The translations under genes were made by a program, and so were the position numbers. The notes below the pieces were generated by a model. It had not been told where the DNA came from and made no database searches. It worked only from the letters and a program-made list of their open reading frames with translations. From Lacipirellulaceae bacterium (GTDB taxonomy: Bacteria > Planctomycetota > Planctomycetia > Pirellulales > Lacipirellulaceae), in contig JAVJRG010000005.1 in the NCBI GenBank assembly GCA_040218535.1, positions 1,364,001-1,428,000 on the forward strand: 64,000 nt of DNA, given 5' to 3'. Shown in pieces: positions 42,628 through 47,230 of the stretch; positions within the stretch are counted from its first letter, which is position 1; the number at the start of each line of letters is the position of its first letter.

Positions 42628-44922
42628 TTAGGCAGGATGTAGCGGACTATGAGCCAGCACAAACCGCTTCTCTCCCGCGGTCGCGAAACGAACCGTCGCG
42701 CGGCGGTTGTCTCCTGATCCACTCAGGGCAACGATTTTCCCAGGACCATACTCGGGGTGTTTGACCGTCATGCCTTGTTTGAACAAGTTCGGATCAGCCT
42801 TAGCGACTTGCTGTTTTTCTTTGCCAGCAAGTTGTGCCGCGGTGGTGACTTGGCTGGCGGCGACCTTCCAACGCGGCCGAGTCGAAGTTTCTTCTTCCGG
42901 CGGTTCAGCACTGCTCTGGTCAAATTCATCGAAGGAAGCGGAGCCCACATCCTCTTCGTCGAAGTCGTCCCAATCAGTTGGATATCCGAAGGAATCAGTT
43001 TGCGGTTCGACGAGCTCCATCTCTTCACGGGGCAGCTCCAGCAAGAACGGGCTGGGCACGGTACGGCGGCGTTGGCCGCGGAAGTCGCGATGGACGGCGT
43101 AGCTGAGTTGAAGCTGCTCTTCCGCACGCGTGATGCCGACGAACGCTAGGCGGCGTTCTTCCTCCATCTGATTCTCATCGTTGATGCTGCGCTCATGCGG
43201 CAGGAGCCCCTGTTCGACGGCCACTAGATAAACCACCGGGAACTCCAAACCCTTCGCGGCGTGTAGCGTCATCATCGTGACCTTATCCGTGTCGTCTTGC
43301 CAATCGTCGGTGTCGTTCACCAGCCAGGCGTTTTCCAGATACGTTTCCAACTGCCCGCCGCCGGGGTTCTTTTCATCGAACTGCCGCGCGTCGGTCAATA
43401 GTTCTTCGATGTTCGCCAGGCGGTTCATGTCCTCTTCGGATTCGCTTTCCTGCAGCGGTTCTCTATACTTTGTTTCTTCGAGGATCGTACCCAGGATTGC
43501 CTCCATTTCATCACCTGCGAGCTTGTTGAGGCGGTCGACAAGTTCGACGTAGGCGAGAGTCTTCTTGGCGGAGCGCGCTGCTAGCCCTTCGATCTGCATG
43601 GCTTCACGAGCGGCGTCAAGCAAAGGAAGCCCGTGGATGTAGGCGTACTCGGAGACAAGGTCCACAGTCTTACGGCCAATGCCACGGGTTGGCGTGTTGA
43701 TGGTTCGTAAGACCGCCTGGTCGTCGCGTGGGTTGTTGATTAACTGGCAGTAGCCGAGAACGTCCTTGATTTCCTTGCGTTGATAGAACTCCAAGCCGCG
43801 AATCATTTGATAAGGAACCCCCGCATCGCGGAGGCCACGTTCCAACGAACGTGACAGCGCGTTCACGCGATAAAAAATAGCAAAGTCGCTGGCAGTTCGA
43901 CTGCCCTCGGCAATCTGCTGCGCGATCGACTCAGCGATTTGCTGGGCTTCATCATCTTGGTTGGAGTATTGCACAAGCCGTACTGCCGAGCCTTCGTCCC
44001 GTTCAGTGAACAACGACTTCTGCTTCCGCTTGAGGTTGCAGCGAATCAGTTGGTCCGCCACGCGCAACACGTTCGGCGTGCTGCGGTAATTCTGTTCGAG
44101 CCGCACTACTTTGACGGTGGGAAAGTCGTTCTCGAACTGAAGGATGTTATTGATGTCGGCACCACGCCATCCGTAGATACTTTGGTCGGGGTCGCCTGTG
44201 GCAGCGAGGTTCGGGTGATCAACCGACAGCGCTCGGAGCATGACATACTGGGCGTGGTTGGTGTCCTGGTACTCGTCGACAAGCACGTAACGGAACCGCG
44301 CGTCGAGCGTCGCCCGCACTTCGCTGTTGGTGTAAAGCAAGTTTGCCAGATGCAAGAGCAAATCGTCGAAGTCGACCGCGCTGCTGGCGAGCAAGCGTTG
44401 CTGATACGCCGGGTACACTTCCGCAACGATGTGACTCAGCGGACTGCCGGTGCGTGGCTCATAGCGATCGGCGGTTACGAGTTTGTTCTTCGCATTGGAA
44501 ATCGCCGCAGCAATGCGATCAGGCGAGTAGTGCATCGTACGGAACTTGCCGGCTTCGATCACACGTTTGAGCGTCTGTTTGGAATCGCTCGTGTCGTAGA
44601 TCGTGAAGTTGGGGGTGAGACCGACCAGCTCCGCATACTCGCGCAGTAACCGCGCTCCGAAGCGATGAAACGTGCTGACCCACGTCCGCCCGCCCGGCAC
44701 GAGTTCTTGCACGCGGTTCTTCATTTCCTCCGCTGCTTTGTTGGTGAACGTCAGCGCGAGAATCTGCGAAGCGGGAACCCCTTCGCGAATCAGGTGTGCG
44801 ATGCGGTGCGTCACGACACGGGTCTTGCCACTGCCAGGGCCGGCGAGGACAAGCATGGGCCCATCGATATGCTGGACGGCTTCGCGCTGCGCGGGATTGA
44901 GGGGGTCGAGGAGTCGGTCCAC
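42628..44922 (-). CDS. pcrA: UvrD/PcrA/Rep-type superfamily 1A DNA helicase
   Basis: A 764-residue helicase with all SF1A motifs: LAGPGSGKTRVVTHR (motif I, 27-40), DEYQDTNHAQY (II), GDPDQSIYGWRGA (III), LEQNYRST (IV), TLHAAKGLEFPVVY (V) and FVGITRAEE (VI). A C-terminal 50-residue tail forms a Tudor-like domain (TVKHPEYGPGKIVALSG) that in PcrA/UvrD contacts RNA polymerase. An acidic linker precedes it. It unwinds 3'-5' and works in repair and in removal of stalled forks or polymerases. Not obviously operonic. Confidence 0.93.
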   Translation of the reverse strand: MDRLLDPLNPAQREAVQHIDGPMLVLAGPGSGKTRVVTHRIAHLIREGVPASQILALTFTNKAAEEMKNRVQELVPGGRTWVSTFHRFGARLLREYAELVGLTPNFTIYDTSDSKQTLKRVIEAGKFRTMHYSPDRIAAAISNAKNKLVTADRYEPRTGSPLSHIVAEVYPAYQQRLLASSAVDFDDLLLHLANLLYTNSEVRATLDARFRYVLVDEYQDTNHAQYVMLRALSVDHPNLAATGDPDQSIYGWRGADINNILQFENDFPTVKVVRLEQNYRSTPNVLRVADQLIRCNLKRKQKSLFTERDEGSAVRLVQYSNQDDEAQQIAESIAQQIAEGSRTASDFAIFYRVNALSRSLERGLRDAGVPYQMIRGLEFYQRKEIKDVLGYCQLINNPRDDQAVLRTINTPTRGIGRKTVDLVSEYAYIHGLPLLDAAREAMQIEGLAARSAKKTLAYVELVDRLNKLAGDEMEAILGTILEETKYREPLQESESEEDMNRLANIEELLTDARQFDEKNPGGGQLETYLENAWLVNDTDDWQDDTDKVTMMTLHAAKGLEFPVVYLVAVEQGLLPHERSINDENQMEEERRLAFVGITRAEEQLQLSYAVHRDFRGQRRRTVPSPFLLELPREEMELVEPQTDSFGYPTDWDDFDEEDVGSASFDEFDQSSAEPPEEETSTRPRWKVAASQVTTAAQLAGKEKQQVAKADPNLFKQGMTVKHPEYGPGKIVALSGSGDNRRATVRFATAGEKRFVLAHSPLHPA

Positions 44923-44957
44923 GTCTGTCCTTACTAAATGAAACTATGTTCGACATT

Positions 44958-45084
44958 ACCCTCCCTTTGGGAGGGTCGACGTCTCAGCGTCGGGGAGGGT
45001 GTGTAGCTGAGCCAATATTGTTGAGCAAATCTAGGCATCTCCCTCCCCGGCCGCTACCGCGTCCAACCCTCCTAAAGGGAGGGT
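44958..45084. repeat. Inverted pair of ACCCTCCC hairpins (REP-pair-like)
   Basis: ACCCTCCC-TTT-GGGAGGGT (44958-44976) and ACCCTCC-TAAA-GGGAGGGT (45066-45084) are hairpins in inverted order. Between them GTCGGGGAGGG and CCCTCCCCGGCC add a second, inner inverted pair. It is another BIME-like element and lies between the divergent helicase and alpha-CTD genes. Confidence 0.6.
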
Positions 45085-45203
45085 GAAGCAGCCGACTAAT
45101 TTTGCTTTTGCCCAACCTCAATCCTAAGCGTTACTGGCCACAGGCGGCAATGCTAGCACTTGTTGCCTCGGCACTCAAAAACTGTCTAGCCGTGGCATTT
45201 TTC

Positions 45204-45234
45204 TTGGTAATGCAAGCACAACTTTTGCTATATT
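45204..45234 (+). promoter_or_regulatory. Extended -10 promoter for the alpha-CTD gene
   Basis: TGCTATATT (45226-45234) has the TGn extension before TATATT; a TTGGTA -35-like word lies at 45204-45209, with a long spacer of 19. The start codon is about 65 bases downstream. Confidence 0.4.
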
Positions 45235-45299
45235 GCTGGCTGTGGTGAGGAGGTCTCGCCCTTCGCTTTTCGTATCCAATGATGGGGAAGGAGTCCCGA

Positions 45300-45572
45300 A
45301 TGACACGCATTCCGTTGAATCAAGCTGAGCTGGCTAATCAGGGCATGAAGGATCGCCTAGAGATGAGCACCGCCGAGATTGGCTTGGCCGTTCGCACGAC
45401 CAACTGCCTTGAGGAAAAAGGCATCTTTACCGTCAGCGACTTGCTGCAAACCAAGCGGGAAGAGTTGCTAAGTATCTCGAACTTTGGTGAGAAGACGCTC
45501 GAAGAGGTCTACAAGGCGCTCGAACGGATTGGGTTTCATCGTCCTCAACCGGCGAAGCGCTATCCTCGGTAA
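45300..45572 (+). CDS. Stand-alone RNA polymerase alpha-subunit C-terminal domain protein
   Basis: A 90-residue protein consisting of one alpha-CTD (helix-hairpin-helix-like) fold without the alpha-NTD. Aligned by eye to E. coli RpoA: LAVRTTNCLEEKG matches LTVRSANCL, so Arg32 equals R265 and Asn35 equals N268; SNFGEKTLEEV matches NLGKKSLTEI, giving Gly63 (G296), Lys65 (K298) and Thr66 (S299). The residues that touch UP-element DNA are thus kept. ATG 45300 has GGGAAGGAG at the best distance; in-frame ATGs at 45279/45282 are less likely. It may bind DNA or RNA polymerase independently; its role is unknown. Confidence 0.85.
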   Translation: MTRIPLNQAELANQGMKDRLEMSTAEIGLAVRTTNCLEEKGIFTVSDLLQTKREELLSISNFGEKTLEEVYKALERIGFHRPQPAKRYPR

Positions 45573-46123
45573 GACAGCTCGGTAAGAGGTTGTCCCGGCT
45601 AAGCCGCAAGCGGCGTGTCTGACTTAAGTGTCTCGGCTGTCGCCCGCTTTCTTTCTTCGTTCGCGAACGAACTGCGCTCTCGGTTCGTAATGATTTTGCC
45701 TGCGATTGGTGCTTCCGGTGCTGTCATCGGGAAACATCCCGTCGAGCAATGTTGCGTTTTGGCAACATCTCGATTCAGGGCAAAGCCTTGTCCGGCTTAT
45801 TGCGAGAAATTGCCTGCCGCGCACTTGCCGCAAGCTACATTACTTAGAAGCCTAGCCTTGGAGAGTGAATGGCCGCCGGGCGTAGTTCGCGACAGCCAGC
45901 ACTGGGCATGATAGCTTCGCTTGTCGCTGAACTTTTCCCAGTTGTTAGAGTCTCTCTAAGCTGTATTTGCGGATAATCGAGTGCCTGACGCAAGAAAATG
46001 ATTGCCAACAGGGGGCTCGGGAGAGTAAACCTAAATGATGGCGACCTTTCATTCCAAGGTCGTAGTAGGGCCAACCCTAAGTAATGTGCGACAAGCGCAC
46101 ACCCATTTGAATGCGAGATAAAA
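45573..46123. other. 550-base gap, no convincing gene
   Basis: Contains a small hairpin GCCGC-AA-GCGGC (45603-45614) shortly after the alpha-CTD stop, without a T tract. A 98-codon open frame (45615-45911) has irregular composition and no start context; not accepted. The last 100 bases are the leader of the next gene. Confidence 0.5.
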
Positions 46124-47230
46124 ATGAATCGTAACTTCACCCTTGCTTTGGCTGCTGTAGCACTCTGCGTTGCTTCCATGATGAGCCCAAGCGTTGCGAC
46201 AGCTCAGTGCGACACGTGTGTCCAACCAACGGTTGCCTACCAACCAGTACAGCCAGTAGCGACTGTGGTTGCCCAAGAAAGAACCGGTTGGTACCCGGGG
46301 CGTTTATTGGATCGGTTGCGCATGCGTTCCTGGCGAGCACAGACACCTGCGACCGCAACCTACACGACCGCTGCGTATGCTCCCTACAATTATACGGCCG
46401 CCTACACGCCGTACACTGCGAGCTATGCACCTTACACAGCTAGTTACACTCCTTACACCGCGAGCTACACGCCTTACGTGACGGCTTATGCTCCGCTCCA
46501 GCGGCGCGTCTATCGCCCGGTCGTATTGCGTCCGGTAATCGCTGACACCGGTTGGTCAACTTGCAACTACACGCCAGCGGCAACTTGCAGCGACTGTGGC
46601 GTCGCACAAGCAGCTTACAGTGAGCCCGTTGGTGGTTGCTCCAACTGCGAAGCCGGCTCCAGCGTGCCCGACTACGCCTACGAAGATGCAGGGAGTTGGC
46701 GAGAGAGTGGATCTCAGGCATCAAGCGATCCACCAACTCCACAGCCTTCTTTGAAGCCAGAAGCCGACCCGCAGCTTTCCTACTACCGTGGCGAAGCACT
46801 CGCCAACGCCCGTGAGTTGGAAACGCTCCGTGACCGGATCGAACAACTCGAACGTGAACGCGATGCCTACCGTGGCTACGGTAGCGAACGCAAAAGCGGC
46901 TATCGCGGAGCGGACGAACCTGAGCAGTCGATCCTCAAGAAAGAACTTTCTGAGGAACCGGAAACGGATGATGGATGGCCCGGTCTGTATTCTCCGGATA
47001 ACGCCACCGAAGAGGAAGACGATCCAGCCGCCAACAGTCCGTACCCACGGTGGAACGTCCCCGTGAGCGAGCGGACGGCACGTGGCCCAAGCGTGAATGT
47101 TTGGAACGCCGTTTACTCGAAGAACAGCGCTCGTGGAAGCCAAGTTAGCAACCGTCAGGTGGCGAAGCAGGCTCCCACGCAGGCTGAGATTGACGCCGTT
47201 GGCTGGCGTGCGGTTAAGCGTGATCGCTAA
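46124..47230 (+). CDS. Exported Tyr/Pro-repeat, Cys-containing protein
   Basis: A 368-residue protein with a signal peptide (1-28, cleavage after ATAQ region). Residues 80-124 are a low-complexity tract of Y-T-P-Y-T-A-S / Y-A-P-Y repeats encoded by imperfect 21-base units (about 46360-46495). Cysteines come in pairs (CDTC at 29-32, C-S-D-C, C-S-N-C), suggesting disulfides or metal binding. The C-terminal 150 residues are charged, include a short coiled coil (ANARELETLRDRIEQLERER) and a basic end. I do not recognise a family; a cell-surface or envelope structural protein is plausible. A strong terminator follows. Confidence 0.75.
   Translation: MNRNFTLALAAVALCVASMMSPSVATAQCDTCVQPTVAYQPVQPVATVVAQERTGWYPGRLLDRLRMRSWRAQTPATATYTTAAYAPYNYTAAYTPYTASYAPYTASYTPYTASYTPYVTAYAPLQRRVYRPVVLRPVIADTGWSTCNYTPAATCSDCGVAQAAYSEPVGGCSNCEAGSSVPDYAYEDAGSWRESGSQASSDPPTPQPSLKPEADPQLSYYRGEALANARELETLRDRIEQLERERDAYRGYGSERKSGYRGADEPEQSILKKELSEEPETDDGWPGLYSPDNATEEEDDPAANSPYPRWNVPVSERTARGPSVNVWNAVYSKNSARGSQVSNRQVAKQAPTQAEIDAVGWRAVKRDR

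Follow-up and report, generated by a model that had tools for sequence, protein, structure and literature searches.

A free-standing RNA polymerase alpha-CTD gene with its own leader in the order Pirellulales

The alpha C-terminal domain (alpha-CTD) is usually regarded as a tethered part of RNA polymerase. Our analysis of the window, the whole stretch of 64,000 nucleotides under study, located on contig 5 of a 5.36-Mb genome from a Lacipirellulaceae bacterium, reveals a gene that encodes an alpha-CTD on its own and that is carried by 186 of 196 genomes of the order Pirellulales. The domain is known and so is its fold; what is new is the dedicated, order-wide, stand-alone form with a leader of its own. 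The gene and the parts of its product are as follows.

45300..45572, + strand: stand-alone alpha-CTD coding sequence, 90 amino acids, from the open reading frame and the PF03118 profile match
Residues 1–20 of the product: N-terminal arm, with R3 invariant and P5 near-invariant
About residues 22–80 of the product: alpha-CTD core
From E. coli position 314 on: C-terminal tail of the free alpha-CTD, with a mean net charge of +3.2 over 21 orthologues

The Pfam profile PF03118 (RNA_pol_A_CTD), whose cut-off is 23.8 bits, matches the 90-residue product at 66.5 bits through residues 15–75 and profile positions 6–66 of 67. This is the single Pfam alpha-CTD in the protein, and little else is encoded. 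By comparison, the rpoA equivalog model TIGR02027 yields 58.5 bits against a cut-off of 227.8 and aligns only through model positions 227–293 of 298, and the alpha-NTD, the dimerisation and assembly part of RpoA, is absent from the protein. The two scores bear out the reading of the product as an alpha-CTD alone in the first-pass annotation, which was made from the letters of the DNA. The HHH_5 profile scores slightly under its cut-off. The best solved chains by sequence are alpha-CTDs (3gfk, 3ihq and 1z3e). AlphaFold2 with 40 sequences gave a poor model (pLDDT 59.6, pTM 0.42), and single-sequence prediction was also weak; the top nine Foldseek matches of the weak AlphaFold2 model are alpha-CTDs or alpha chains, with E values of 0.05 to 1.3 and 9dvt_A as the best. 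The assignment to the alpha-CTD family thus rests on the profile match and not on the predicted model. The NCBIfam family NF005841 (PRK07758, a 95-position ‘hypothetical protein’ family) is also small and shows a weak match in its second half; it scores 18.2 bits with the free protein against a cut-off of 115, and nothing in the same genome exceeds this cut-off, the best score being 28.4 bits for the TPR protein described below.

The window contains in-frame ATGs at 45279 and 45282 upstream of the ATG at 45300. The latter is likely the start codon, because an orthologue from the same genus (96% identity) starts at the equivalent position, in-frame starts upstream are absent in 7 of the 11 orthologues readable there, and AAGGAG lies directly 5’ of this ATG. 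Of the 30 orthologue loci taken for comparison, 27 were parsed.

The genome of the window carries four PF03118 matches in three genes, namely rpoA, a TPR-repeat protein and the free alpha-CTD gene. A full-length rpoA, whose presence the first-pass annotation had proposed to check, was found; it encodes 373 residues and sits between open reading frames that read by eye as rpsD and rplQ. The TPR-repeat protein is the following.

L001:1471-2838 (G000:C8), − strand: TPR-repeat protein with two alpha-CTDs, 455 amino acids, adjoining an open reading frame that reads as tgt

Like the free gene, this protein places alpha-CTDs outside RpoA in the same genome. It differs in its length, in the lysine at position 268 of its second CTD (12 of 12 sequences), in the threonine at position 298 of both CTDs (12 of 12 each) and in its phylum-wide occurrence. 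In a sample of the phylum, 46 of 47 genomes have at least three alpha-CTD matches. As listed, these mostly consist of one match in a frame the length of rpoA plus a pair in another frame, and such two-alpha-CTD frames are common across Planctomycetota. A different small alpha-CTD open reading frame of 69 residues was observed at L210:2627-2836 on the − strand, in genome G426 from another family of the class.

The free gene is close to universal in the order. Among the genomes of relatives it was detected in 57 of 59, the own genome included, with 63–100% identity, and the two relatives with no match are 72% and 68% complete. Of the 196 Pirellulales genomes, the 186 that carry the gene have one match each (E 1e-25), so that it is not restricted to one genome, the outcome that would have counted against the first-pass reading. 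It is present in 154 of 158 good-quality genomes of the order and missing in G435, G442, G450 and G485. The named genera with a match include Adhaeretor, Bythopirellula, Lacipirellula, Aeoliella, Botrimarina, Pirellula and Mariniblastus. In a draw from the class, 26 of 27 genomes of the own order score at least 127.7 bits; outside the order none of 91 genomes has the gene, and none exceeds 76.2 bits, the level of rpoA. A draw from the phylum (E 1e-22) matched 5 of 294 genomes, all from the own order. These genome-by-genome searches were made within Planctomycetota, and the origin of the gene is most simply placed in an ancestor of Pirellulales. In all, 362 stretches encode a relative, and the best 80 of the 362 were used below. 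An origin from a phage or plasmid was considered and rejected, as the matches in 20 phage and 68 plasmid records reach at most 43% identity (20 of the 68 plasmid records listed); the annotated phage or plasmid places among the matches listed are named RNA polymerase alpha. One of these records, Bacillus phage vB_BmeM-Goe8, has two matching places and encodes an ‘RNA polymerase subunit alpha’ of 210 residues with an alpha-CTD-like match (L189:1054-1686). Among the matches listed from the open-licence literature, searched partly by narrow phrases, no stand-alone alpha-CTD protein was found; PMC10632474 concerns Planctopirus limnophila of the order Planctomycetales.

The residues of the putative DNA face are retained throughout the family. 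For E. coli numbering, residue roles and the list of DNA contacts we use the established assignments for alpha-CTD positions. The window protein has R265, N268, C269, N294, G296, K298, T299 and E302, in agreement with the first-pass annotation, which had listed R265, N268, G296 and K298 as kept and position 299 as Thr. In an alignment to the window protein, the first seven of these residues are present in 123 of 123 loci, with L063 included and some genomes counted twice; E302 is present in 121, with Q in the other two. A loss of the residues in orthologues, which would have spoken against the earlier reading, is therefore not seen. Because the best 80 of the 362 loci were picked with the patterns MSTAEIGL and VRTTNCLE, the presence of R265 and N268 in them is to some extent preset; the remaining 43 of the 123 loci were chosen without those patterns.

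The free alpha-CTD is also conserved somewhat more strictly than the alpha-CTD of RpoA in the same genomes. Where both genes could be compared, in 21 genomes, the free protein has 37 invariant positions out of 60 in the core and the RpoA CTD has 21. Mean pairwise identities over these positions are 82.0% and 76.2%, respectively; by identity the free protein leads in 158 of 210 genome pairs and ties in 22. This comparison is gap-free, and an extra residue near the end of the RpoA of genome G041 costs RpoA some identity; without G041, the identities are 82.1% versus 78.3% and the invariant positions 37 versus 26 of 60, with the free protein ahead in 138 of 190 pairs. If the comparison is cut to the first 53 positions, with all 21 genomes included, 34 positions are invariant in the free protein versus 21 in RpoA, and the free protein leads in 187 of 210 pairs. 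In nine close pairs dN is 0.011–0.050, and dS is 0.33–2.8 in seven of them and not computable for the other two. Since dN is far under dS, the free alpha-CTD gene is under purifying selection. When 79 CTDs were placed in a tree, all 21 free ones grouped as a single clade with 100/100 support and a long stem. This tree has an unsettled bootstrap, and its 60 columns are too few to resolve the root of the free clade and its RpoA source.

Our comparison with RpoA separates what the free protein shares from what it has replaced. Both belong to the same domain family, and both have the core motif VRxxNCL...NFGxxTLxEV and all DNA-contact positions. The free protein, by comparison, has no alpha-NTD or linker, is encoded by its own gene and carries the conserved R3/P5 arm, and its mean identity to the Pirellulales RpoA CTD is 42%. 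At 20 positions, which include much of the DNA face, the two proteins of the 21 genomes share the same residue, fixed to at least 90%. Nine positions are fixed but different (free/RpoA: I260/L, T266/A, L282/V, S291/E, I292/V, S293/R, K298/T, F312/L and R314/L), and ten further positions are fixed in RpoA only, among them R279, E286, D287 and K306. Lysine occupies position 298 in all 21 free proteins. In the sampled Planctomycetota RpoA this position carries T in 33 of 34 sequences and A in the remaining one: the 21 Pirellulales sequences all have T, and the 13 loci from outside the order that were parsed and used out of 20 comprise 12 with T and the one with A. Position 293 is R or K in every member of four comparison groups but S in the 21 free proteins, and position 304 is Y in the free proteins but mostly R or K in the comparison groups, with Q, T or E in some RpoA. 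In the wider set of 89 orthologues, 78 have S at 293, and at 304 there are 80 with Y and 9 with F. Position 261 is G in all 89, versus N, K, Q, S or H in the RpoA of the 21 genomes. E259, part of the sigma-contacting determinant, is kept in all 89 parsed free sequences.

Since the DNA face is retained, a lysine absent from RpoA is present and charged positions of the RpoA type have been exchanged, we infer that the free alpha-CTD probably binds DNA and has its own partners, instead of reproducing RpoA’s protein contacts. The pattern of conservation agrees with the suggestion in the first-pass annotation that the protein could bind DNA and compete with or supplement RNA polymerase. In two genomes from another family of the class (L201 and L205), RpoA also has E297-T298, and these genomes (G082 and G106 in the class draw) lack the free gene, which argues against simple compensation for a weakened RpoA.

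Specific features are also found upstream of the gene.

45285..45297, + strand: leader element GGGAAGGAGTCCC, of the GGGARGGANCCC type, overlapping the Shine-Dalgarno sequence and able to form a 4-bp stem
45204..45234, + strand: possible promoter, recognized by eye, with TTGGTA, a 19-nt spacer and TGCTATATT (TATATT, extended -10-like)

In the window alone the leader element has 2 matches with at most one mismatch, versus 2.07 expected, which is no excess over chance, so its weight comes from the orthologues. With L113 left out, the strict form GGGA[AG]GGAN(1-2)CC is found just 5’ of the ATG in 57 of 85 distinct orthologue leaders and the loose form GG[AG][AG]GG[AG]N(1-3)CC in 70 of 85; shuffles gave means of 0.03 and 0.2, respectively, and four stretches farther upstream gave 0 or 1. 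All 57 strict elements can fold on their own into a GGG/CCC-type stem, of three pairs in 49, four in 7 and five in 1, with a mean stem energy of -2.9 kcal/mol, which shows a capacity to pair only. The purines of the leader are an ordinary Shine-Dalgarno sequence, which does not account for the conserved CCC that follows them. In 57 genomes, GGGAGGGANCC-N(1-8)-ATG occurs at 80 sites, versus 20 for a reversed-pattern control, and 27 of the 80 are the alpha-CTD gene; of 30 GGGAGGGANCC-type sites that were read out, 13 are this gene. Full GGGAGGGANCCC sites precede an ATG 33 times in these genomes, and by hand count 27 of them belong to the alpha-CTD gene; of the six others, three are one sequence in one genus. 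The idea that the leader is a general Shine-Dalgarno form is therefore rejected in part, by the 27 of 33 GGGAGGGANCCC sites, although similar sites do precede other open reading frames, and the element appears to be largely specific to the free alpha-CTD gene. Translational control through the leader hairpin is possible. A leader of the same kind, GGGAGGGACCCCTCGAG-ATG, stands before another small open reading frame (MSASYLR...) in L186 and L188, of genus g2.

The promoter of the gene had been described earlier as looking strong. A strong consensus promoter was rejected, as a sigma-70 consensus scan of 44900-46150 returned 0 promoter-like sites (0.6 in shuffles), which leaves just the candidate seen by eye. 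A terminator-like hairpin lies at 45244-45260, downstream of the possible promoter and ahead of the start codon; the scanned stretch has 3 terminator-like sites versus 1.4 in shuffles, possibly by chance. Between uvrD and the alpha-CTD gene, an inverted repeat at 44958-45084 has 19-nt arms 89 nt apart, and parts of it recur at several places of contig 12, in a REP-like manner. Two miRNA models of Rfam fall on the palindromic spacer far under their gathering scores and were taken as chance.

The one recurrent neighbour is a divergent helicase gene.

42628..44922, − strand: UvrD/PcrA helicase, divergent neighbour of the alpha-CTD gene, with a PcrA_UvrD_tudor domain (Pfam)

A divergent pcrA/uvrD lies within 1.2 kb upstream in 51 of the 71 loci with at least 2.6 kb of upstream sequence. 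Among the 20 other loci, L092 misses the 1.2-kb cut-off by about 70 bases, and L055 has uvrD about 5 kb off. UvrD is found in 59 of 81 sources, followed among neighbour families of ordinary length by counts of 26, 25, 22, 21 and 20; the comparison is rough, as the downstream flank is short at many loci. Clusters of short open reading frames (47, 38, 35, 34 and 18 of 81 sources) were set aside; three of them have a member in the window, in each case over uvrD. The downstream genes differ between loci. Conservation of the neighbours, as considered in the first-pass annotation, thus holds for the divergent pcrA/uvrD, and no other neighbour recurs in most loci. The downstream protein of the window (46124-47230, + strand) is by eye Cys- and Tyr-rich and probably secreted; it has no match in Pfam, and its cluster occurs near the alpha-CTD gene in 20 of 81 sources.

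Taken as a whole, these features lead us to propose, tentatively and at somewhat less than an even chance, that the free alpha-CTD acts in trans as a DNA binder at promoters. In the proposed mechanism, an alpha-CTD would have become a gene of its own and, since the alpha-NTD is missing, its product could not be built into RNA polymerase as alpha is. At a set of promoters it would bind minor-groove sites that are A+T-rich and UP-like, act beside a polymerase whose own alpha-CTDs are without K298, and help or block that polymerase through new lineage-fixed surfaces, namely G261, S291-I292-S293, Y304, F312, R314 and the R3/P5 arm. The median net charge of the family is -2 (87 of 89 proteins), so the putative affinity for DNA without a partner may be low. 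A broader form of the proposal, which we hold to be doubtful, is that the whole order uses a trans-acting alpha-CTD, as a near-universal dedicated promoter-binding module that would supply the K298-type minor-groove contact missing from alpha and would be translated through its own conserved, structured Shine-Dalgarno leader.

Other roles have to be weighed against action at promoters. The protein might act at the protein level, as a decoy or adaptor that binds sigma region 4 or the activators that touch the alpha-CTD of RpoA and tunes them, with DNA binding being secondary. The retained E259 is consistent with this role, as are the closest solved chains, of which 3gfk and 3ihq are complexes with the regulator Spx. 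A decoy should, however, copy the surface of RpoA, and several charged positions with at least 90% fixation in Pirellulales RpoA (R279, E286, D287, E291, R293 and K306) are replaced or variable in the free protein, whose glycine at position 261 is invariant and differs from the residues of RpoA there; a plain decoy is thereby less likely, and we regard this role as unlikely. Alternatively, the neighbourhood could point to an accessory of PcrA/UvrD in DNA repair or transcription conflicts, in which a small DNA binder of the helix-hairpin-helix type was made from an alpha-CTD. The frequency of the divergent helicase gene, the tudor domain of the helicase in the window and the HHH_5 score just under its cut-off would fit such a link, yet 20 of the 71 loci fail the neighbour test, the pair is divergent and forms no operon, and the fixed residues are those of the alpha-CTD DNA face, so that we consider it rather unlikely.

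Pairing with other alpha-CTDs, either that of RpoA or those of the TPR protein, is improbable in our view: the TPR protein and the common two-alpha-CTD frames do indicate that such modules are used outside RpoA, but these frames are phylum-wide and also occur where the free gene is not found. The small size of the gene and its resemblance to the end of rpoA could finally suggest a functionless rpoA fragment, pseudogene or annotation artefact. This is rejected as having a negligible chance, given the presence of the gene in nearly all genomes of the order, dN far under dS, the conserved leader and a sequence that has diverged so far from the RpoA CTD. Action in trans at promoters is the reading that we prefer.

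Here a free copy of an alpha-CTD has turned into a gene of its own and has then been nearly frozen across an order. If action in trans at promoters is true, bacteria of a little-studied group would have in this protein a small general transcription factor, and the abilities of an untethered alpha-CTD could be tested in a natural setting.
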